Source of the DNA: a virus
Length of the DNA stretch: 24,173 bases
Direction: 5' to 3' (one strand)
IMG/VR virus record: IMGVR_UViG_3300002180_000046
Location: 1-24,173 of that record
Every line of letters starts with the position of its first letter. Position 1 is the stretch's first letter. Position numbers and translations under genes: made by a program. This document shows positions 946 to 1,366 of the stretch, one piece after another. Under the pieces are notes generated by a model that saw only the letters and a list, made by a program, of their open reading frames with translations, was not told the origin of the DNA and searched no databases.

Positions 946-1001
946 GACAGAGACCCTCTGTCCTAGAGAGTCCCTTGGATAGCTCGGACTTTCGGTGACA
1001 G

Positions 1002-1225
1002 TCTCACCCGTACGGATATTATGCAGCAAAAACATGCGCTTAGGGGCACCTGGATAGCCTGGATAGCCTGGACCGCCTGAGGTGTCCTTACGCGCGTGCG
1101 AAATCCCTATATACCAGATAAGGGGCTCTCCTTGCGTAAGAGACTTTTTACTAGTCCAGGCTATACAGGCTATCCAGGTATATATAAAGCTATGAAAACA
1201 AACGATAATATCCGTACGGGTGAGA
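1002..1225. repeat. 224-bp nested inverted repeat, three concentric arm pairs
   Basis: Three arm pairs share one centre at 1113.5. The outer arms (1002-1022 and 1205-1225) are 21 bp and perfect, and contain CCGTACGG. The middle arms (1049-1072 and 1155-1178) are 24 bp with one mismatch. The inner arms (1087-1093 and 1134-1140) are 7 bp, CTTACGC and GCGTAAG. The stretches between arms are mostly unpaired. Identical centring means equal spacing on both sides, as in an extruded cruciform or a symmetric multi-protein site. There is no credible gene here. A replication origin, recombination site or operator are the main options. Confidence 0.85.
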
Positions 1226-1252
1226 AACGCTCTGGAAGTCCAGGCTATACAG
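1050..1252. repeat. 9-bp motif cluster GCTATMCAG in both orientations
   Basis: CTGGATAGC occurs in tandem at 1050-1058 and 1059-1067, followed by a degenerate copy. The opposite orientation appears as GCTATACAG (1160-1168), GCTATCCAG (1169-1177) and GCTATACAG (1244-1252). A 17-bp direct repeat (1153-1169 and 1237-1253) carries the last copy. The motif builds the middle arms of the nested inverted repeat, so it is a likely recognition unit for a DNA-binding protein. Confidence 0.65.
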
Positions 1253-1277
1253 GGGGTAAATGGGACCGAAATAAGCT

Positions 1278-1366
1278 GTCAGTGCCGACTGATAAGGGGT
1301 CAGTGCCGACTGATAAGGGGTCAGTGCCGACTGATAAGGGGTCAGTGCCGACTGATAAGGGGTCAG
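1278..1366. repeat. Four perfect 21-bp tandem repeats (iteron-like)
   Basis: Identical 21-bp units lie at 1278-1298, 1299-1319, 1320-1340 and 1341-1361, with five bases of a fifth at 1362-1366. Each contains the dyad TCAGT-N4-ACTGA followed by GATAAGGGG. A single GATAAGGGG also sits at the centre of the nested inverted repeat (1117-1125). Twenty-one bp is two helical turns, so bound dimers would line up on one face. This is the usual form of replication iterons or tandem operators. Short open frames across it are repeat-encoded and not called. Confidence 0.9.

Follow-up and report, generated by a model that had tools for sequence, protein, structure and literature searches.

Iteron origins are known from P4 and the SaPIs, and in the SaPIs the iterons form opposed sets and are strain-specific. 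Origins of this type have an AT-rich centre between the iterons and an initiator that joins a helicase to a C-terminal DNA-binding domain with iteron specificity. The pRN1 origin is a 100-bp stem-loop located downstream of a PrimPol-SF3-winged-helix gene; its sequence is variable and its structure conserved, and the same arrangement has been proposed by the pRN1 authors for phage BIP-1, such initiators assembling at the stem-loop (PMC4234260). pRN1 is without iterons, unlike P4, whose alpha protein binds the repeats of the P4 origin by way of its winged-helix domain (PMC4234260). De novo priming by the NrS-1 primase-polymerase needs a specific 8-nt template sequence, found twice in the centre of the genome (PMC7102993).

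The element described here resembles the pRN1/BIP-1 arrangement in that a large inverted repeat, variable in sequence with pairing kept, lies downstream of a PrimPol + SF3 helicase gene. It differs in its dimensions and composition. The single pRN1 stem of ~21 nt closes a 58-nt loop and sits 54 bp from its gene; the dyad here is built of four iteron tiers, measures ~280 bp, encloses a conserved motif of 17 bases and, in relatives, stands ~2 kb away from the gene. Iterons, absent from the pRN1 type, are present here as tandem ~9-bp repeats in both orientations. Short repeats are shared with P4 and the SaPIs, where they are bound by a primase-helicase or helicase initiator, and as in P4 and the SaPIs the iteron sets of the two arms have opposite orientation. 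The SaPI comparison rests on general knowledge together with a structural match of the gp47 model (below) to PriRep1 (7pds); the P4 alpha primase is of the Toprim type, whereas the protein here is a PrimPol. Since a dyad is combined with iterons, which the pRN1 type lacks, the element is distinct from both the pRN1 and the P4/SaPI types. To our knowledge an exact single-centre register across tiers, kept through replacement of the iterons, is unfamiliar from P4 or the SaPIs. By analogy, the NrS-1 recognition sequence may parallel the 17-base motif, although the two sequences differ and the consulted passages on NrS-1 mention neither an iteron array nor a dyad. An earlier, sequence-only reading of this DNA held that no named phage element has this layout, which is too strong given the known PrimPol-helicase stem-loop origins (pRN1, BIP-1) and iteron origins (P4, SaPI). 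The RDJL1 genome paper does not mention 'origin', 'repeat' or 'primase', and no paper describing the element surfaced in literature searches.

Geometry of the dyad

The window, meaning the whole stretch of 24,173 nucleotides that was analysed, is positions 1-24173 of a 31-kb IMG/VR virus record. Its morphogenesis genes are ~77-80% identical to those of the Roseobacter phages RDJL Phi1, RDJL Phi2 and RDJL6 (Xiamenvirus; the first two are RDJL1 and RDJL2 below), of which the window is a truncated relative. The sequence-only reading had described three concentric inverted repeats with a single centre, and computation places all arm pairs on that centre, 1113.5; the three tiers stand, and a fourth, imperfect and outermost tier had been overlooked (Table 1). 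The whole dyad extends over ~972-1255. Its outer, perfect arms belong to a longer, 51-nt pair (972-1022/1205-1255) with 78% complementarity, the middle arms are 26 nt long with one mismatch, and the inner arms are 7 bp. Within +/-150 bp of the centre, complementarity holds at 81 of 148 symmetric pairs (z 8.4), and in the part of the window tested as background z does not exceed 4.2; in a second symmetry test the dyad had a z of 8.28, versus at most 4.56 in 100 Markov shuffles. Folding of the region, a check proposed at the outset, gave single-strand energies with z -14.9 as RNA and -9.3 as DNA, and formation of a DNA cruciform by the dyad is possible. The only Rfam match with E<1 was to an unrelated microRNA family, MIR9486 (1055-1171, 29 bits where the cutoff is 100), which the inverted repeat produces spuriously.

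The dyad arms consist of tandem iteron-like repeats of ~9 bp, CCTGGATAG on the left and its complement on the right. AT content is ~40-65% in the central dyad region and the central loop is without AT richness; a tract of 75-80% AT lies off-centre at ~1180-1209, and the right spacer reaches 80% AT per 20 bp at ~1180-1199.

Table 1. Features of the element and adjoining repeats, in window coordinates
Feature	Position	Strand	Observation
Outermost (fourth) tier, left iteron copy TGGATAGCTCGGAC	976-989	+	Partner of 1238-1251, with 1113.5 again the centre
Outer tier, left arm, 21 bp perfect	1002-1022	+	Compensatory changes in RDJL1/2/6
Motif GCAGCAAAAACA-N4-CTTAG in left spacer	1023-1043	+	All 17 fixed positions identical in RDJL1/2/6; inverted iterons also flank it in phages that are otherwise unrelated
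Middle tier, left arm, about three tandem 9-bp iterons CCTGGATAG	1048-1073	+	Arm computation; relatives
Inner tier, left arm CTTACGC inside conserved TCCTTACGCGCG	1087-1093	+	Kept in RDJL1/2/6
Central loop, dyad centre 1113.5	1094-1133	none	Takes up length changes among relatives
Inner tier, right arm GCGTAAG inside conserved CCTTGCGTaag	1134-1140	+	Arm computation; conservation
Middle tier, right arm, iterons in opposite orientation	1154-1179	+	Arm computation; relatives
Right spacer, AT-rich, conserved TATGAAA; candidate unwinding element	1180-1204	none	AT content; conservation
Outer tier, right arm, 21 bp perfect	1205-1225	+	Arm computation; compensatory changes
Outermost (fourth) tier, right iteron copy GTCCAGGCTATACA	1238-1251	+	Pairs with 976-989
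Tandem 21-bp unit ATAAGGGGTCAGTGCCGACTG, 4.6 copies, adjoining the dyad	1271-1366	+	Repeat computation

The 21-bp tandem unit is possibly an accessory repeat; by sequence inspection RDJL1 has about one copy of it, versus 4.6 in the window. The unit contains the word GATAAGGGG, which recurs in the dyad centre at 1117-1125. To the left of the dyad a palindrome-like word, TTTCGGCGA...CACCGAAA, occurs twice (826-847 and 924-945), with variants in RDJL1/2/6, and these words may be terminators or further protein sites. Near the contig end a direct repeat TTATTTATATGGAAATGCTTCTGGGTACCC... with a C run is found at 1-56 and 82-137 of the window, possibly an assembly artefact.

Fixed geometry and turnover of the arms among relatives

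The element is found, unannotated, in the same gene gap of all three isolated relatives, RDJL1, RDJL2 and RDJL6 (~0.8 to 1.6 kb by annotation). In none of the three does an annotated gene extend across it, a point that the sequence-only reading had left to be checked. The arms of the window, RDJL1, RDJL2 and RDJL6 were compared ungapped from two anchors, the 17-base motif on the left and T[AC]TGAAA on the right, which replaced a whole-element MAFFT alignment that had gapped the outer arms. The true register has 273 complementary cells out of 432 and 41 compensatory columns; registers shifted by 1-6 have at most 127 such cells and 10 such columns in the same four phages. Paired structure is thus conserved without conservation of sequence, as in the pRN1 type. 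The distance between the anchors is 168, 179, 178 and 174 bp and the dyad centre nevertheless lies at an offset of -13.0 from the anchors in all four phages, so that length changes are confined to the central part. Arm symmetry, spacing and the shared centre are therefore kept in related genomes, a check that the sequence-only reading had proposed.

The iteron word differs between lineages, being CCTGGATAG in the window, CTTGTATAG in RDJL1/2 and CGGACCAG-like in RDJL6, yet it alters on both arms together. The inner blocks TCCTTAC.CGCG and CCTTGCGT are also conserved among the window and RDJL1/2/6. The earlier picture of equal spacers whose sequence had drifted is accordingly correct as to spacer length and has to be amended as to sequence: it is the arms that drift, in concert, and the sequence of the left spacer is conserved.

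A single-centre dyad of this layout also occurs in Ruegeria phage Tedan, built of another iteron, GTAAGGC (z 10.1). The Tedan gap (L090 25371-26863) apparently holds two GTAAGGC-type clusters ~1 kb apart, and the best-scoring exact dyad covers the first only. Inverted iteron arrays of differing sequence are found downstream of gp47-type genes in RcSimone-Hastad, RcRudolph, ZQG1, L121, L122 and L141. Among these more distant relatives the inverted iterons of RcSimone-Hastad, RcRudolph and ZQG1 are without a long exact dyad, the Bradleyvirinae likewise lack exact dyad symmetry, and in L122 the register holds over a shorter span only. The exact dyad is thus a feature of Xiamenvirus and Tedan, and inverted iterons are more general. 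An exact 8-mer iteron scan of IMG/VR relatives gave some peaks in coding repeats and was replaced by an inverted 7-mer score; within the stretch examined, many IMG/VR relatives are without a clear iteron peak. A search of a plasmid collection gave no match.

The primase-helicase gp47 as candidate initiator

RDJL1, RDJL2, RDJL6 and Tedan each have a PrimPol + SF3-type helicase gene upstream of the element, as in the pRN1 type. The RDJL1 gene, gp47, is at 27764-30172, and the 17-base motif is at 32251, ~2.1 kb downstream; a mere 1 kb of the window record precedes the element, and the corresponding gene of the window phage would fall outside it. RDJL1 gp47 has Prim-Pol, PriCT_2, DUF5906 and VapE-like domains. 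Its GenBank label 'integrase' is wrong; the protein is a PrimPol + DUF5906 (D5/SF3-like) primase-helicase. The label appears in three Roseobacter phage records (HM151342 27764-30172, KT266805 27887-30295 and OK283306 28425-30836), the other two proteins being 82-97% identical to that of RDJL1, and the RefSeq versions of RDJL1/2 already name the gene DNA primase. For the Tedan primase-helicase the identity is ~47-50%.

With 28 related sequences as input, AlphaFold gave a gp47 model (mean pLDDT 82) that matches the helicase region of NrS-1 PrimPol, AsfvPrimPol rings and the DNA-bound SaPI initiator PriRep1, the top match of the helicase region being NrS-1 (6k9c, E 1e-14). The C-terminus is modelled as strand-helix-helix-strand-strand-helix, consistent with a winged helix; a search of PDB folds with the C-terminal domain model, solved DNA-binding domains included, gave no significant match (E at least 0.3).

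It is the C-terminus that varies with the iterons. RDJL1 and RDJL6, whose iterons differ, are 87% identical over residues 1-640 and 59% identical over residues 690-790, and for RDJL1 and RDJL2, which have their iteron in common, the values are 99% and 94%. Over 14 pairs of phages the ratio of C-terminal to core identity is 0.89-1.04 in the six with a common iteron, mostly close relatives, 0.38-0.77 in the seven with different iterons, and 0.75 in RcSimone/L141, the one pair whose iterons are partly in common. The 100 C-terminal residues of the primase-helicase thus diverge when the iterons differ, a correlation across sequences that is uncorrected for phylogeny.

Function of the element

The element is probably the replication origin of this marine phage lineage, operating in the manner of the pRN1, P4 and SaPI origins with its iterons set in an exact dyad, a function deduced from comparison of sequences: from the geometry, its conservation through turnover of the arms, the linkage to a primase-helicase gene, the family of that protein and the divergence of its C-terminus. 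Among the options named in the sequence-only reading (a cruciform origin, a resolution or recombination site, or a symmetric nucleoprotein switch), an origin in the form of a symmetric iteron nucleoprotein site is best supported, and a recombination site poorly so, no recombinase gene having been found beside the element. In the proposed mechanism the phage PrimPol/D5-like (SF3-type) primase-helicase, whose gene in the window phage would lie beyond the contig end (~2 kb upstream in relatives), would use its C-terminal domain to bind the tandem iterons on the left and right arms. With the dyad exact, two initiator assemblies would come to stand face to face around the centre, an arrangement that would suit a pair of helicase rings pointing in opposite directions. 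The DNA would melt first in an AT-rich spacer, the right one being the most probable place, and the left-spacer motif GCAGCAAAAACA-N4-CTTAG would serve as a site for single-strand loading or priming. GC skew, suggested earlier as a check and computed for RDJL1, shows no clear switch at the element; the AT-skew minimum of RDJL1 falls at the gene-orientation switch.

An operator, partition or other regulatory site, at which another phage protein would bind the iterons to control transcription or segregation, is unlikely. Operators do typically consist of inverted and direct repeats placed in non-coding gaps, a promoter could sit in the AT-rich right spacer, and the downstream genes continue on the + strand; however, iteron turnover tracks the C-terminus of the primase-helicase (the binders compared being the primase-helicase and TerS), comparable arrays occur near PrimPol/DUF5906 genes in distant phages, and a fixed-centre dyad of ~280 bp is unusually large for an operator. 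The comparison with TerS bears also on a packaging (pac/cos) site, which would be recognised by the small terminase subunit encoded ~4 kb downstream. The element does lie upstream of terS/terL, and the counterpart gap of the Bradleyvirinae directly precedes terS, but the N-terminal HTH core of TerS, AAGVSYSTISRWK, is identical in the window, RDJL1, RDJL2 and RDJL6 despite three iteron types. A strongly changing site should change its reader, which argues against a pac site and makes this explanation quite improbable.

That the hairpin is transcribed as a structured non-coding RNA is very improbable, even though the fold is very stable (z -14.9) and the arms carry compensatory changes. No family of Rfam 15 scores above its cutoff, each arm repeats one short word in tandem, and in more distant relatives the repeats persist without the pairing register. 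Moreover, pairing of RNA from one strand should favour one class of mismatch, and the balance seen in the well-matched blocks of five phages (20 G.T versus 16 A.C) argues against it; the symmetry is better read as an arrangement of protein sites in DNA. There is only the slightest likelihood of a recombination, resolution or mobile-element site, or of a cruciform so used: the inverted arms are perfect and the upstream gene is labelled 'integrase' in GenBank, but that neighbour is the primase-helicase, the same gene gap is occupied in relatives, and the arm sequence turns over, unlike insertion-sequence ends.

If the element is an origin, it would illustrate a possible route to altered origin specificity in PrimPol-helicase phages, in which the left and right arms exchange their iteron word simultaneously, with no base pair of change in the geometry, and the initiator C-terminus changes along with it. 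It would also offer a compact candidate origin in culturable phages (RDJL1, RDJL2, RDJL6 and Tedan) and a short motif for origin hunting elsewhere.

The 17-base motif in other phages

A first core pattern, CCTTACRCGCGYG..., had the wrong spacing and gave no matches. The exact IMG/VR scan for GCAGCAAAAACA-N4-CTTAG yielded 19 stretches, several of which are expected by chance alone, belonging by inspection to about nine lineages. The motif window ranks first in its locus for inverted repeats in L067, L069, L074, L079, L081 and L083, which represent four lineages outside Xiamenvirus (L067, L069, the L074/L079/L083 group and L081), and in L070 it is near the top, 2 of 110 windows being higher; in L068, L075 and L082 it is not enriched. 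Inverted-repeat scores are 23-55 in the enriched viral loci and 59-85 in Xiamenvirus. As controls, 55 matches in cellular genomes (GTDB) and 76 viral loci with CTT instead of CTTAG were used, and among the matches listed no control motif window exceeded 23; none of the 55 GTDB matches showed a strong iteron array.

The replication proteins of the motif-bearing phages differ. G009 (L081) encodes a PrimPol-DUF5906 protein whose aligned part has just 22% identity with gp47; the ends of this contig carry matching sequence, and as a circle it has the motif ~2.1 kb downstream of the rep gene, in the same orientation relative to that gene as in RDJL1. G003 (L069) has a DUF5906 protein with a DUF3854 domain (the G003 and G009 proteins are 22-25% identical to gp47 over the aligned part), and G001 (L067) a DUF7146-Toprim primase, with no PrimPol, DUF5906, D5_N or VapE match in the domain search. 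The motif is thus not tied to one enzyme class. It is conceivable, though doubtful, that GCAGCAAAAACA-N4-CTTAG is a portable replication-start element common to phages with scarcely related replication proteins or with ones of different class (PrimPol-DUF5906, DUF3854-DUF5906 and a TOPRIM primase without a detected SF3 helicase). Were this so, the motif would be read by a common host factor or would be a universal single-strand loading or priming site, and the surrounding iterons would give replicon specificity.

In L068 (472-492, minus strand) and its relatives L071 and L078 the motif lies ~15 bp past the stop codon of a Toprim/AAA_25 primase-helicase, without iterons, and is there due to chance or part of a different origin type. 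Many of the GTDB matches are one recurring locus of Myroides and related Bacteroidota with a terminator-like stem (L198, L216, L218, L233 and related loci), in which GCAGCAAAAACAGTARCTTAGTACTGTTTTTT...TTTGCTGCAT is conserved in many genomes; it resembles the stem of a terminator or attenuator and has no relation to the phage iterons.
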